Source: Chloroflexaceae bacterium (GTDB lineage: Bacteria > Chloroflexota > Chloroflexia > Chloroflexales > Chloroflexaceae). Taken from it: 61,612 bases of DNA. The notes below the pieces were generated by a model. That model was given only the letters and a program-made list of their open reading frames with translations, did no database searches and was not told where the DNA came from. The stretch lies in contig JANQID010000109.1 in NCBI GenBank assembly GCA_028282325.1, positions 1 to 61,612 of the forward strand, written 5' to 3'. Positions within the stretch are counted from its first letter, which is position 1; every line of letters begins with the position of its first letter. Positions 50,402-56,052 of the stretch are shown here, one piece after another. A program made the translations under genes and the position numbers.

Positions 50402-50803
50402 AACCCTCCCCTTTGATAGAAATGGCTTGTATTGGCGGCGACCGTCTCACGGCGCCCCCTATGATAGCATAATGTTTTGATTTGGCGAATAGAGATGCTC
50501 CAGCCGTTTATACGGTCAAAGGCAAAACACGCATCATCGTACGCTATATTTACGTAGCCATACACCCGTATCTTAATAGAGCGATCAAAGATTGAAGACA
50601 GGCATTGGCGTAGTGCAGCAGTCATGTTGCCGGAGGCACGGAAGCTATGCTCTTGTATGTCAGAGGTTACCCAACTCTGCGTGATCGCTCCAGGAGTGGT
50701 TGCCTTGCCTTTGCGCTTTGGCTATAATGAAGACTCCCTGAAGGTGGATCTATCCACTATAGCCAGCGCACATTGAGAAAGCGCAACGTAGTCAGGATGG
50801 CTC
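50402..50803. promoter_or_regulatory. Divergent intergenic region before the cyclase gene
   Basis: About 400 bases between two divergent starts. It should hold promoters for both genes. I see no convincing gene or strong palindrome; an AGGA lies about eight bases before the cyclase ATG. Confidence 0.4.
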
Positions 50804-53800
50804 ATGGCCCGCACCCTCAAAGATCAAGCAACGTTCTCATACGCTGGCGGACTATCGGAGAAGGTGTTGCAACATTATCTCCCATCTGATCTTGCTAAAA
50901 GGTTGTGTCGTGCAGAACCCGAGGCGCGCACGTTCGTCGAAGCTTACGCCCATTTGTCGAGCGCTCGCTATGCAGTAAGCACGTATCTCCCGCATCATTT
51001 GATCGCTCGTCAGATTACAACACATGAGAGCGGCCCCTGGTTAGAATGGGTCGAAGGTTCATTACTTTTCGCCGATGTCAGCGGTTCAACAGCCCTGGCC
51101 GAACGCCTTAGTACGCTGGGGCGTGAGGGTATCGAGATCGTCACCAGCGTGCTCAATGATTTCTTCGAGCCGATGATTCGGATCATCCAGCAGGCAAACG
51201 GCGATCTGTTGACCTTCGGCGGCGATGCACTGCTGGTACTGTTTAGTGGCCCCGATCATGCGCTCGTTGCAACACATACTGCACTTACCCTCCTTGATGA
51301 ATTATCTAACTTCGAGCGTTCAATTGCAGAGATCGGCGCCTTTCACTTGAGTATGCACATTGGCGTAGAAAGCGGGCGCGTCGCCTTGATCAGCGCCGGT
51401 CAATCCGATTCACCTCGGTACAGCGCAATGGGGTATACGGTGAATAACGTTGCGCGCGCGGAGGGTTATGGCAATCGCGGCGATCTGGTGGTCGGCCCAA
51501 ACACATGGGGCCAGATTTCAGCCAGCGCCGATGGCGAAGAGGTTGCGCCGGGTTATATGCACATCCGTACCCTCCACAACGCCCCATCCGCCGCAGCCGA
51601 GCTTCCTCAGATTGATTCGATGCACGCTCACACTTCGGAGGCGCTCTCGCTTGTTACTCAAGAGTTGGCGCAATTGAGCATCTATCTGCCGGAAGGTCTT
51701 CTGTCACGCATCCTGGCCGACCCGCAGCGACCCCGCATCGAGGCCGATCTACGCCCGGTAACTGTGCTGTTCGCCCAAATCATCGGGTTGGAGCCGCTGA
51801 TTGAAGCGTTGCCGCCGAATACCGCCGCCACTCTGGTCGATAGAGTTGTGCGCGCAATGCAAGATGCCGTCAAGCGTTTCGGTGGCGTAATCAACAAACT
51901 CGACCTGGCCGACGAGGGAAGTAAGCTGCTCGCCATTTTTGGCGCGCCCATAGCCTACGAAGACCATGCTGAACGCACCGCCCGCGCCGCGTTGGCAATG
52001 ATCGACGCATTGGCCGACGTACACAACGCACCTCGCAAAGATCTCGCTGATCAAACATCCTTACCGCTGGCAGATATTACCATACGCATCGGCATCAATA
52101 CCGGCAGCGTATTTGCCGGAAATGTCGGTTCCGCCGATCGCAAGGAATACACGGTGATGGGCGACGCCGTTAATGTGGCCGCCCGCGTGATGGGCCAGAC
52201 TGCCTGGGACGAAGTCTGGTGCAGCGAATCGACCGCCGCAAGTATCGACTCGCGATTGGAATTTGCCAACCGCGGCTATGTACGGGTCAGGGGTAAAAGT
52301 GAACCATTGCGACTGTTGAAACTGGTCGGCGAACGCGCGCAAACTGATCTCATCAAGCCCAATCAAGCGCCGTTGGTTGGTCGCCAGGCGGAATTGCAAC
52401 AGCTCCGCAGTTATCTGAAAGCAGTATCGGCAAGCCAGGGCCAGGTCGTTCGGATCAATGGCGAGGCCGGTCTCGGCAAAAGTCGCCTGGCCGCAGCATT
52501 GATCGAGCGTCCCCGCGCACAAGCGCTGCGTATCGTGCAAGTCACCTGCTTTTCGTTCCTCAACACTACGCCGTTCGCACCCTGGAGCGAAATTCTAAAA
52601 GAAATCTGTGACATCGCATCGGGAGATAGCCAATCATTGCGTGAAACCAAGCTGAAGGCAGCGCTGGCCCGACTGGGTGCTGATCAAACAGAATGGCTGC
52701 CATTGCTGGCCGATCTGATCCGCCTGGAGACTGCGGAGACGACGCTGACACGCGCGCTTGAACCGCAACAGCGCCAGATCCGCCGTTTTGAGTTGATCAC
52801 AGATTTGCTCTTCGCAGCAGCCCAAAACGCTCGGCATGCGCCCGCCGGGATGCTGCTTATCTTCGAGGATTTACATTGGGCCGACCAGGCATCGCTCGAT
52901 CTGTGGCAATATGTAGCGGCGCACATTGCCAAGGTTCCCCTCTATCTGCTGGGACTCCACCGGCCTCAACTCTCGTGGGGCCGCGGCGACCAGGGTGATG
53001 GCGCACATATAATCAACCTGGACGAGTTGCCGCCCGATGACAGCGACGCATTGCTGGAATCGCATCTGAACGGCGTCCAAATCCCGCCAGGCTTGCGCGA
53101 TCATATCATCAGACGAGCGGACGGTAACCCACTGTTCCTCGAAGAACTGGCGCGAGCCGTCGTCGCCCAGTTTCAGGCCGGTTCTGATACCGAAGCGCTC
53201 GATGTGCTGGCTGAACTGCCGGACAGTCTCAATGGCTTGTTGCTGGCGCGCATCGATCGGCTGAATGAAACCAGCCGCGCGTTGTTGCGCATTGCGGCGG
53301 TGATTGGTTTGCGCTTCCCGTTCGGCGTCTTGCAAGCGATCCATCCCGTTGATCAGCAAGCGCTGCTGCACGAATTGACCAACCTCGACGAGCAAACATT
53401 AACGCTGCTCGAACGTGAAATACCCGAACGCGTTCATACATTTCGCCATGCATTAGTGCAAGAAGTCGCGTATCAGAGCCTGCTGTATTCACGTCGGCGC
53501 GAATTGCATCGGCGCATCGGCGAATACCTCGCACGCCGCTACACCGATGATCTGATCGCACTTCAAACTTACTACGCACATTCCACAACCAGTTCCAGCC
53601 CGGTTCAGAGCAACCTCGATGACGTACCGTCGAACACAGCCAAAGCCAACACGTCGCTCCTGTTCTTGCTAGCGCATCACTATCGGCTGAGCGACGCGCC
53701 GGATCAAGCCATAACCTACTTGTTGCTGGCCGGGCATGCTGCCCGCGAAGCTTATGCCAACGATGAAGCGATCCAGCATTATCGTTGGGTCTTGGAGTTA

Positions 53801-55228
53801 TTGCGCGATCAGCCGAGTAACCCGCAAACCTGGGAGACCCGCGAGGCGCTCGGCGATGTTCTCTGCACGATCGGGCGCTATGATGAAGCCCTAGAAGAAT
53901 ACGCCGCCGTGCTAGCGTGTGCCAACGTTGATAACGATATGGAGCAAGGTCTCCCTCCAAATGTCGCCGCCGAAGCGCTGCGCAGTCGCGGTTATGCGTT
54001 GGAGAAGCAAGGGCGTTATGCCGACGCCCTGGCCGCACTCCGTCAGGCTGAAGCACTCGTCCAAAAGCGGCTAAACGACGTGCCACCGTTGTTGGTGTCG
54101 GCCATCTCCGCCGACATAGGCCTGGTGCTGACCCGCCGCGGCGAGTATGATGAAGCGCTCGAAGTTTGCATCGAAGGACTTGGACGACTGCGCCGAGATC
54201 GGCGCACGCGCGAAGATGAACGGATCGAAGCGCATCTGCAAACTCAGATCGGCACAATCCACGGGATGCGCGGCAACTACGCCCAGGCGCGATTCCACTT
54301 CGAGAACGCTCTGGCAGCCCAGGAAGCCATCGATAATCTGTATGGCAGCAGCATTCTGAACAATAACTTGGGATATTTGTGGCAGTTGCAAGGCAATTAC
54401 GAACAGGCGCTCGAACACTACCTCCTGGCTGAAGATCTGGCGCAAAAGATCAACGCGCGCAACGTGCTCAGCGGCGCCAACCTGAATGCCGCCTACGCGG
54501 CCTATTGCCTGGGGCGCTATGCTGAAGCCGAAGAAGGATGTCGCACCGCCCTCGCGCTCTATGAGGAGATGCGCGACCAGGCCGGCATAGCGCAGGCGTA
54601 CGACACGCTTGGTCAGATCGTATTCAACCGCGGCGATTACAACCAGGCGCAGGAATACTATACCCGCGCGTTGGAGCTGCATCGCAAACTAGGTAGCAGC
54701 TATGAAGAAGGCAACTGCTTGACCAATATCGCCGAGGTAGCCGGCGCGCTTGGACAAACAGAGCAAGCCTATGTTACGGCGCGCCAGGCGTTGGAGATCG
54801 GCGAGCGTTTGCAGGCAACCCAACTTCAAATCGAGGCGCTCAATGCACTGGCCGAAGCGCAACTGCTGGCAGCCGAAACAGATGCAGCGCTTGATGAGAG
54901 CGCCACCTGGGCCCAACGAGCAGCCGCCCTCGCCGAAGCGCTGGGGAGCCGCGGTGATTATGGCATCGCGCAGCGTCTGCTTGGCCAGATTGCAACGCGC
55001 CAAAAGCGCGATTTCGGTGCTTACTTTCAGGCCAGCCTCGCCGCATTCACCGAGATCAAAAACCGGTTTGAGCTGGCCCGTACACAGGCGCGTTATGCCG
55101 AAGCGCTACACGCATGCAACGAAGCAGCGGCGATTACGTATCTAAAACAAGCCCAATTCACGTTTAAAGAGATTGGAGCCAGGAGAGAACTTGAACAACT
55201 CACGATACTCAGCGAAAGGAGCGCGTAG
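50804..55228 (+). CDS. Soluble-adenylyl-cyclase-like protein: two class III cyclase domains, AAA/NTPase domain, TPR array
   Basis: 1474 residues, no membrane helix. Cyclase domain 1 (about 85-245) has both metal Asp residues: Asp91 in LLFADVSGST and Asp141 in FGGDALL. Cyclase domain 2 (about 315-510) lacks the first (Gln325 in LFAQIIG) and has NKLDLADEGSKLLAIFG, but carries the transition-state motif GDAVNVAAR. The two together form one complementary active site, as in mammalian ADCY10. Residues about 520-800 are an ATPase (P-loop GEAGLGKSR, Walker B LLIFEDLHWAD). TPR repeats fill about 1000-1474. The ADCY10 bicarbonate-site Lys95 aligns with Thr137 here. It is followed two bases later by a small peptide gene. 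Confidence 0.92.
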   Translation: MARTLKDQATFSYAGGLSEKVLQHYLPSDLAKRLCRAEPEARTFVEAYAHLSSARYAVSTYLPHHLIARQITTHESGPWLEWVEGSLLFADVSGSTALAERLSTLGREGIEIVTSVLNDFFEPMIRIIQQANGDLLTFGGDALLVLFSGPDHALVATHTALTLLDELSNFERSIAEIGAFHLSMHIGVESGRVALISAGQSDSPRYSAMGYTVNNVARAEGYGNRGDLVVGPNTWGQISASADGEEVAPGYMHIRTLHNAPSAAAELPQIDSMHAHTSEALSLVTQELAQLSIYLPEGLLSRILADPQRPRIEADLRPVTVLFAQIIGLEPLIEALPPNTAATLVDRVVRAMQDAVKRFGGVINKLDLADEGSKLLAIFGAPIAYEDHAERTARAALAMIDALADVHNAPRKDLADQTSLPLADITIRIGINTGSVFAGNVGSADRKEYTVMGDAVNVAARVMGQTAWDEVWCSESTAASIDSRLEFANRGYVRVRGKSEPLRLLKLVGERAQTDLIKPNQAPLVGRQAELQQLRSYLKAVSASQGQVVRINGEAGLGKSRLAAALIERPRAQALRIVQVTCFSFLNTTPFAPWSEILKEICDIASGDSQSLRETKLKAALARLGADQTEWLPLLADLIRLETAETTLTRALEPQQRQIRRFELITDLLFAAAQNARHAPAGMLLIFEDLHWADQASLDLWQYVAAHIAKVPLYLLGLHRPQLSWGRGDQGDGAHIINLDELPPDDSDALLESHLNGVQIPPGLRDHIIRRADGNPLFLEELARAVVAQFQAGSDTEALDVLAELPDSLNGLLLARIDRLNETSRALLRIAAVIGLRFPFGVLQAIHPVDQQALLHELTNLDEQTLTLLEREIPERVHTFRHALVQEVAYQSLLYSRRRELHRRIGEYLARRYTDDLIALQTYYAHSTTSSSPVQSNLDDVPSNTAKANTSLLFLLAHHYRLSDAPDQAITYLLLAGHAAREAYANDEAIQHYRWVLELLRDQPSNPQTWETREALGDVLCTIGRYDEALEEYAAVLACANVDNDMEQGLPPNVAAEALRSRGYALEKQGRYADALAALRQAEALVQKRLNDVPPLLVSAISADIGLVLTRRGEYDEALEVCIEGLGRLRRDRRTREDERIEAHLQTQIGTIHGMRGNYAQARFHFENALAAQEAIDNLYGSSILNNNLGYLWQLQGNYEQALEHYLLAEDLAQKINARNVLSGANLNAAYAAYCLGRYAEAEEGCRTALALYEEMRDQAGIAQAYDTLGQIVFNRGDYNQAQEYYTRALELHRKLGSSYEEGNCLTNIAEVAGALGQTEQAYVTARQALEIGERLQATQLQIEALNALAEAQLLAAETDAALDESATWAQRAAALAEALGSRGDYGIAQRLLGQIATRQKRDFGAYFQASLAAFTEIKNRFELARTQARYAEALHACNEAAAITYLKQAQFTFKEIGARRELEQLTILSERSA

Positions 55229-55230
55229 GG

Positions 55231-55452
55231 ATGTCACAAGAAGCTGTCCAGATGGTTATCGGGCGTGCAGTGACCGACGACGAGTTTCGTCAGCGACTGA
55301 TCGACAATGCTCACGAAGCCTGCAAAGGTTATGACCTGACCGCAGAAGAGTTGGAGGCGCTGGAGGCGCTCGACGCCGCCAGTCTGAAGGCATTCGCCGG
55401 CACTCTCGACGTACGCATCTCAAAGACCGGCGGGCGCGGATTCCTCGGCTAG
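55231..55452 (+). CDS. Small NHLP/Os1348-type peptide, possible RiPP-like precursor
   Basis: 73 residues. SQEAVQMVIGRAVTDDEFRQ, then GYDLTAEELEALEALDAASL, follows the short helical leader pattern of nitrile-hydratase-like leader peptides, closest in my memory to the Os1348 group of Chloroflexi. The C-terminus is DVRISKTGGRGFLG; a GG pair precedes the last five residues, as at leader cleavage sites. The start is two bases after the stop of the cyclase-ATPase-TPR gene, so they are co-translated. No modification enzyme or transporter is nearby, so it may be a signalling or partner peptide rather than a bacteriocin. A terminator follows. Confidence 0.75.
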   Translation: MSQEAVQMVIGRAVTDDEFRQRLIDNAHEACKGYDLTAEELEALEALDAASLKAFAGTLDVRISKTGGRGFLG

Positions 55453-55486: not shown

Positions 55487-55517
55487 GAGGCGAGAAAGTT
55501 CTCGCCTCATTTTATTT
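55487..55517. terminator. Bidirectional terminator hairpin
   Basis: GAGGCGAGAA (55487-55496) pairs perfectly with TTCTCGCCTC (55499-55508), followed by ATTTTATTT. It ends the cyclase-peptide operon. On the other strand it lies at the end of the membrane-protein gene. Confidence 0.8.
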
Positions 55518-56052
55518 GCGTTTCTTCCGCGACGGTAAAGTCTGCTGCGGCGGCAAATGCGTCGTTATAGAACAACTCGGCGCGATAGTCGCCTGTCGCC
55601 AGGCCATGCTCAACTGAACCCTGGATAACGAAGTAGCCCCGAACATTGCCGCCGCGGCGAAATGTGTCACGGTCGTTCGGGTGTTCGGGTTGTGTCGCTC
55701 CATTGACGATATAGACGACTCGTATGACATCCCCAGGAGCAGCGGCGCGCACACGGTAGGTGATGTAGATCGTATTGTCAGGGCGAAAATGGTCGGCGGG
55801 ATCGACCGGTTGGTACTCAGCATCGATATACGTCGCGGTCTGAACTTCATAGATGGGTTGTCCGCTCACGATGGTTGCAATCGGCGCAGCCTGATCATCG
55901 GCGGCGGTCCACACTCCTGCGAGCAAGGCAAACCCGACATAAGCCAGCACGCACATTACGGCGATCACGCTTACCAGCAAACGTAGACGCGGCTCCGTCG
56001 CAGACGCTGAATCGGTCGGTTCTTCAGGAGTATACTCGGATGGAGCGCTCAT
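55507..56052 (-). CDS. Single-helix membrane-anchored protein of unknown function
   Basis: 181 residues. A polar N-terminus of about 22 residues is followed by one helix (LLVSVIAVMCVLAYVGFALL), then an extracellular beta-rich domain (ITYRVRAAAPGDVIRVVYIV, GGNVRGYFVIQGSVEHGLATG). The C-terminal strands (GDYRAELFYNDAF) look like an Ig-type fold that ends similar surface proteins in this group. It overlaps the sugar kinase stop by four bases, so it belongs to the glycosidase-kinase run. Confidence 0.75.
   Translation of the reverse strand: MSAPSEYTPEEPTDSASATEPRLRLLVSVIAVMCVLAYVGFALLAGVWTAADDQAAPIATIVSGQPIYEVQTATYIDAEYQPVDPADHFRPDNTIYITYRVRAAAPGDVIRVVYIVNGATQPEHPNDRDTFRRGGNVRGYFVIQGSVEHGLATGDYRAELFYNDAFAAAADFTVAEETQIK

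Follow-up and report, generated by a model that had tools for sequence, protein, structure and literature searches.

Organization of the locus

Two adjacent genes in the window (the whole 61,612-nucleotide stretch of DNA that was analysed) encode a large soluble adenylyl cyclase (sAC)-like protein and a small protein of the Os1348/NHLP clan (Table 1). A spacer of only two bases (GG) separates the TAG of the cyclase gene from the ATG of the peptide gene, and an intrinsic terminator with a T-rich tail (-16.8 kcal/mol, z -4.5) lies 3' of the latter. Both reading frames, the two-base spacing and the 3' terminator thus bear out the closed two-gene unit that the first-pass annotation had drawn. Because the Shine-Dalgarno sequence of the peptide gene sits in the last cyclase codons, and a site similar to AAAGGAG is kept at orthologous loci, the two genes are probably translationally coupled. 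One flank of the pair carries tsaB/tsaE-like, NUDIX, hydrolase, ParA and ADC genes, and the other carries PfkB and amylase genes. The ten neighbouring genes tested include no RiPP enzyme or exporter, in keeping with the earlier remark that none lies near, and no ATP-grasp ligase of the kind that partners graspetides.

Table 1. Features of the two-gene locus and domains of the cyclase, in window coordinates
Feature	Position	Strand	Basis and remarks
Promoter-like site TTGCCT-17-TATAAT, 5' of cyclase	50700..50728	+	Consensus scan, 10/12 matches; weak, near chance rate
sAC-like class III cyclase (C1, C2)-STAND/AAA_16 ATPase-TPR protein, 1474 aa	50804..55228	+	ORF, profiles, structure matches
C1 catalytic domain, residues ~76-290	51029..51673	+	Metal-binding D91 and D141 conserved; T137 at the human sAC Lys95 position
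C2 catalytic domain, residues ~291-512	51674..52339	+	Adenine-site Lys and Thr and transition-state Asn/Arg conserved
AAA_16/STAND NTPase core, residues 523-707	52370..52924	+	Pfam
TPR superhelix, residues ~931-1474	53594..55225	+	Pfam and predicted structure
Shine-Dalgarno AAAGGAG of peptide gene, within final cyclase codons	55216..55222	+	Position read from sequence
Os1348/NHLP-clan small protein, 73 aa, ATG start	55231..55452	+	ORF and profiles
Intrinsic terminator	55487..55518	+	Stem 55487-55508, 9 bp, then ATTTTATTTG

The sAC-like cyclase

Pfam recognises two stretches of Guanylate_cyc, an AAA_16 domain and TPR_12 in the 1474-residue protein. Its closest solved structure is human ADCY10, the soluble adenylyl cyclase (E 4.5e-27), so the initial description as soluble-adenylyl-cyclase-like was right. 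Because the pair of C1 metal-binding aspartates and the C2 lysine, asparagine and arginine are present at the sAC positions across the whole peptide-linked set, the cyclase should be active. In human sAC, Lys95 and Arg176 bind bicarbonate (residue roles in Table 1 of PMC12867704). At the Lys95 position, every peptide-linked cyclase (27/27) has T, S, N, G, A or V, and every unlinked paralog (14/14) has K. The Arg176 position, an alanine in the window cyclase, is conserved in neither group. Since one or both residues are missing from many animal sACs (PMC12867704), their absence here does not exclude membership of the sAC family. The loss of Lys95 may have been a single ancestral change; it therefore counts as a correlate and does not prove that regulation was altered.

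The succession of an AAA_16 NTPase and a TPR superhelix is the architecture of a STAND NTPase with a TPR sensor. The superhelix is predicted with high confidence by AlphaFold2 (AF2; orthologue model), and the model is nearest to the LGN-type peptide-binding TPR superhelix. Cyclases linked to the peptide carry an extra TPR repeat (residues ~1190-1230) that is absent from the peptide-less paralogs, and their middle TPRs are mildly enriched in conserved residues specific to the linked group (14/200 versus about 4% elsewhere, a weak concentration). PADLOC matches the cyclase only to general PycC (cyclase) and TPR models and the peptide to none, which we did not take as evidence of a defence function.

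The small protein

The 73-residue protein is a member of PF14407 (Frankia_peptide; E 8.8e-21, 74.4 bits versus a cut-off of 48) and of NF038399, the 'Os1348 family NHLP clan' (88.1 bits versus a cut-off of 40), and its profile matches PDB 6lk7, the structure of Os1348 (E 9.5e-5). Modelled alone with AF2, it forms three helices (3-15, 17-32 and 38-66) followed by a disordered tail (mean pLDDT 66). A Foldseek search with this model returned no match, and no relatives were found in viral contigs.

Across 35 sequences, 23 of the 73 positions are invariant, among them Cys31 and, in the tail, R62, K65, G68 and G70, which form part of the conserved motifs R62-x-x-K65 and G-x-G-(F/L). Cys31 is also retained in the divergent L172, L179, L183 and L185 and is missing from the SpoIIE- and SARP-linked members of the family. 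The GG that had been pointed out near the end of the peptide is present in the window, but it is not an invariant double-glycine motif, its first G often being A (AG) in orthologues. The tail is 7-9 residues long, Cys-free and conserved, which is unlike the usual picture for the core of an antibiotic or for a bacteriocin under diversification. Purifying selection on the peptide is stronger than on the cyclase: dN is lower in the peptide in 231/231 pairs (median ratio 0.52), and its omega is about 0.02-0.1 in close pairs.

Pairing of the two genes across genomes

Searches for the peptide family covered 60 related genomes and 400 genomes of the phylum; those for the cyclase covered the 60 related ones. 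The association between peptide homologues and cyclase-TPR genes, which the first-pass annotation had named as the point to check, proved very strong: in 34/34 loci with readable upstream sequence, the orthologous cyclase lies immediately upstream of the type-1 peptide, with a median gap of 5 nt and a gap of at most 52 nt in 32/34. Further pairs occur in L172, L179, L183, L185, L189 and L194, and in G030, where the peptide stands at a contig edge behind the last TPR residues. Over 61 genomes, both genes are present in 31, neither in 25, the peptide only in 3 and the cyclase only in 2 (Fisher 1.8e-11). Both cyclase-only cases (2/2) have a cyclase that runs off the contig end, and 2/3 of the peptide-only cases are contig fragments that still carry the TPR end.

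Hosts of the pair include Chloroflexus, Oscillochloris, Viridilinea, Chloroploca and Roseiflexus. Distant pairs include those from two metagenome-assembled genomes labelled Anaerolineae by their submitters and one labelled Chloroflexia (L172, L179 and L185), in which the peptide lies directly downstream of a cyclase only 33-35% identical to that of the window; the peptides themselves are 62-78% identical. In four Chloroflexus loci (L070, L072, L074 and L118), a ~1220-aa protein is encoded 3' of the peptide on the same strand and apparently in the same operon; the one tested has HEAT repeats.

Genomes with the pair also encode a second sAC-like cyclase, alike in architecture and 33-38% identical to the first; none of these paralogs, among those examined, has a peptide behind it. 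In a tree made with a quick method and containing long branches, one well-supported branch parts 27 peptide-linked from 13 unlinked cyclases, and the linked side also takes in the lineages with no more than 33-35% identity to the cyclase of the window. As a separate observation, the peptide-less paralogs in L081, L082, L084, L086 and L088-L093 are followed by a ~1000-1190-aa protein, which matched no Pfam family in the one case tested.

Loss of the cyclase can be followed within one genus (g3, Ca. Chloroploca). There, G026 has both genes, and G018 and G002 lack the cyclase between flanks that are ~92% identical. The peptide gene of G018 has decayed, with two TAG stops and several deletions. 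That of G002 is intact; its omega is 0.16, against 0.02-0.08 where both genes are retained, but with 14 substitutions behind it this rise is no more than suggestive. Taken with the conserved linkage in distant genomes and the peptide-less paralogs, the decay after cyclase loss strengthens the case for the functional tie of the peptide to the cyclase-ATPase-TPR protein that had been proposed from the sequence of the window.

A probable dedicated partner of the cyclase

We favour, with somewhat better than even confidence, the reading that the 73-residue protein is a dedicated intracellular partner, either a regulatory subunit or a ligand, of the sAC-like cyclase-STAND-TPR protein whose translation immediately precedes its own. 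This reading is based on near-obligate pairing with signals of coupling, on the joint loss of the two genes and on a constraint that is stronger in the peptide than in the cyclase. The peptide would then probably be an on/off partner private to a cAMP-making sensor enzyme, and not an antibiotic.

Ligands bind the TPR superhelix in STAND proteins such as MalT. By analogy, the peptide may bind the TPR superhelix of the cyclase through its helical Os1348-fold body together with its conserved C-terminal tail, and binding would shift the STAND ATPase between off and on states. Synthesis of cAMP could thereby be gated by the amount of peptide, by the invariant Cys31 or by release of the tail, and such gating would replace that by bicarbonate, whose binding lysine the linked cyclases have lost. 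Single-chain AF2 predictions of the TPR region with the peptide, made on natural in-frame cyclase-peptide pairs with the stop read through, left the peptide unplaced at low confidence (7 alignment rows only, short linker). Against the partner reading we counted the intact peptide without a cyclase in G002, the weak concentration of group-specific residues in the middle TPRs, the possibility that Lys95 was lost in one ancestral event, the lack of Arg176 in linked and unlinked cyclases alike, and the resemblance of some family relatives to RiPP precursors.

This resemblance underlies the first of three alternatives, in which the peptide is a RiPP precursor, a leader with a short core, whose maturation and export fall to enzymes with genes at other sites, and the cyclase-STAND-TPR protein acts as regulator or sensor of the mature product. 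Some members of the NF038399/PF14407 family are indeed of RiPP type: f2 genomes line up a cyclase-STAND-TPR gene with one for a weakly related peptide and then one for a class IV LanL, and in G126 tandem peptides adjoin a SPASM-type radical SAM enzyme. Os1348 of Pseudomonas likewise has modification-type neighbours (PMC7726476). However, searches for LANC_like, YcaO, SPASM, Peptidase_C39 and MNIO (PF05114), with positive controls in other genomes, gave no match in the window's own genome, which is 99.98% complete. Because these homologues are absent, a classical RiPP is unlikely; we dropped it as the leading view. For the known precursor types considered (lanthipeptide, TOMM, SPASM-radical-SAM and MNIO), neither a cognate maturation enzyme, among the ten tested neighbours or in the genome, nor a double-glycine leader with a C39 peptidase-transporter was found. 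No maturation gene is constant beside the pairs, the short Cys-free tail is conserved where RiPP cores usually vary, and the peptide is under strong purifying selection. An exotic maturase, such as an ATP-grasp enzyme acting in trans, may exist, and we regard a RiPP precursor as improbable overall. Matches to NHLP/Os1348 domains, taken alone, are no evidence of a RiPP pathway. A radical SAM gene upstream in Chloroflexus was rejected as the maturase of the pair, being weakly PhpK-like and not a conserved neighbour. The f2 rows with LanL (L142 4700-4954 and L154 1508-1756) may represent a cAMP-regulated lanthipeptide cluster.

An equally unlikely alternative gives the small protein a sensing role of its own, for instance as a redox or metal switch acting through Cys31, with its state passed on to the cyclase and contact with the TPRs secondary. 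Cys31 is invariant in the 35 sequences and kept in the divergent loci, and such a role would account for a peptide body more conserved than the cyclase, but a single Cys is all that the peptide offers by way of a metal-binding motif, and Cys31 is possibly structural. Least probable is operon hitch-hiking, in which a peptide of unrelated role merely shares the promoter: functionally unrelated genes can remain together in small operons, and the G002 peptide is intact without its cyclase, but the linkage is kept over deep divergence with no other constant gene, whole lineages lack both genes, and one peptide decayed once the cyclase was lost.

Relation to known systems

The sAC-like cyclases of Chloroflexus, the NHLP/Os1348 peptides and the NHLP clusters with a large kinase are already known. 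Kobayashi, Buck and Levin reportedly described sAC-like cyclases of Chloroflexus aurantiacus in 2004. The 2004 work on the Chloroflexus cyclases is cited in PMC11006738. With its C1-C2 tandem, ATPase, long C-terminal region and conserved catalytic metal and base residues, the window cyclase resembles ADCY10-type sAC; unlike it, linked members lack the Lys95 equivalent and are co-encoded with a small protein. To our knowledge, no sAC with a co-encoded small protein is known.

The peptide resembles Os1348 of Pseudomonas sp. Os17 in its matches to the 6lk7 profile and to NF038399. Os1348 influences antibiotic activity and has acetyltransferase, HEXXH and SagB-like genes around it (PMC7726476), whereas these three kinds of gene are absent among the tested neighbours in the window. 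NHLP-Burk TOMM clusters contain a large Ser/Thr kinase (Haft et al. 2010, PMC2887384). In the window, too, an NHLP-type peptide adjoins a large signalling protein. However, relative to the TOMM kinase, which we take to be the NCBIfam TIGR03903 kinase/cyclase fusion protein, the window cyclase scores 234 bits versus a cut-off of 705.75, no kinase domain was found in it, and its genome has no YcaO. RRNPP, SARP and FxSxx-COOH systems share with the window a TPR-containing protein that lies beside, or answers to, a small peptide. Unlike in these systems, the window peptide has no recognised export signal and the output is a cyclase; against NF040586, the cyclase shows weak TPR similarity only (54 bits versus a cut-off of 300).

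The literature searched, which covered few subscription papers, describes no NHLP-fold protein as the dedicated partner of a cyclase-STAND-TPR protein. If the partner reading is true, sAC-like cyclases, the class of human ADCY10, have a dedicated protein partner in lineages without the bicarbonate-binding lysine, and the question of what their large C-terminal ATPase-TPR part senses could be put to a direct test with just two genes.

Other proposed partners of the peptide family

Members of the peptide family also occur beside other signalling proteins. In Ktedonobacteria, 20/22 of the MSWK-type Os1348 peptides lie within 10.5 kb, and often within 600 bp, of one subfamily of BTAD(SARP)-STAND-TPR regulators; by genome, peptide and regulator occur together in 13, the regulator only in 2, the peptide only in 0 and neither in 14. 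The ~1000-aa neighbours of these peptides were considered as LanM and rejected, Pfam identifying them as BTAD/STAND/TPR regulators. At least two MSWK-peptide loci have polyketide- or prodigiosin-like surroundings and are not RiPP clusters. In Chloroflexales, a type-2 Os1348-type peptide lies upstream of a SpoIIE-type PP2C phosphatase at 14 loci. Taken together, the cyclase, SARP-STAND-TPR, SpoIIE and M50/cNMP-binding neighbours suggest that this small-protein fold partners signalling proteins, STAND-TPR proteins above all. A wider and more tentative proposal, to which we give well under even credence, is that proteins with the Os1348/NHLP 'RiPP leader' fold could serve as general intracellular ligands of STAND-TPR proteins, sharing their origin with RiPP leaders and working with exchangeable outputs, namely cAMP, SARP transcription in Ktedonobacteria and possibly SpoIIE phosphatases.

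Several individual loci may be recorded here. MSWK peptides occur at L122, L123, L128, L131, L135, L047, L138 and others, mostly in Ktedonobacteria, and also in the window's own genome (G000:C69, L078); at L126 and L127, the surroundings include halogenase, PigA-like dehydrogenase or acyltransferase genes. Type-2 loci are found in the window's own genome (G000:C98:37196-37342; L061 9128-9352) and at L060, L062, L064, L141 and L143-L151, with tails such as ...GSFWK and ...APVWS and, often nearby, a conserved ~330-aa gene without a Pfam family. At L040-L044, L046, L048, L049, L055 and L157, genes for Os1348-domain precursors, of which several have a long variable C-terminal region, adjoin one for an M50-peptidase-related (or thioredoxin-like) protein with cyclic-nucleotide-binding domains. 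Finally, L063 3537-14829 (G059) holds a possible operon of a sAC-like cyclase-AAA protein, a 307-aa protein, a cNMP-binding protein, an Os1348-type peptide and an amylase.
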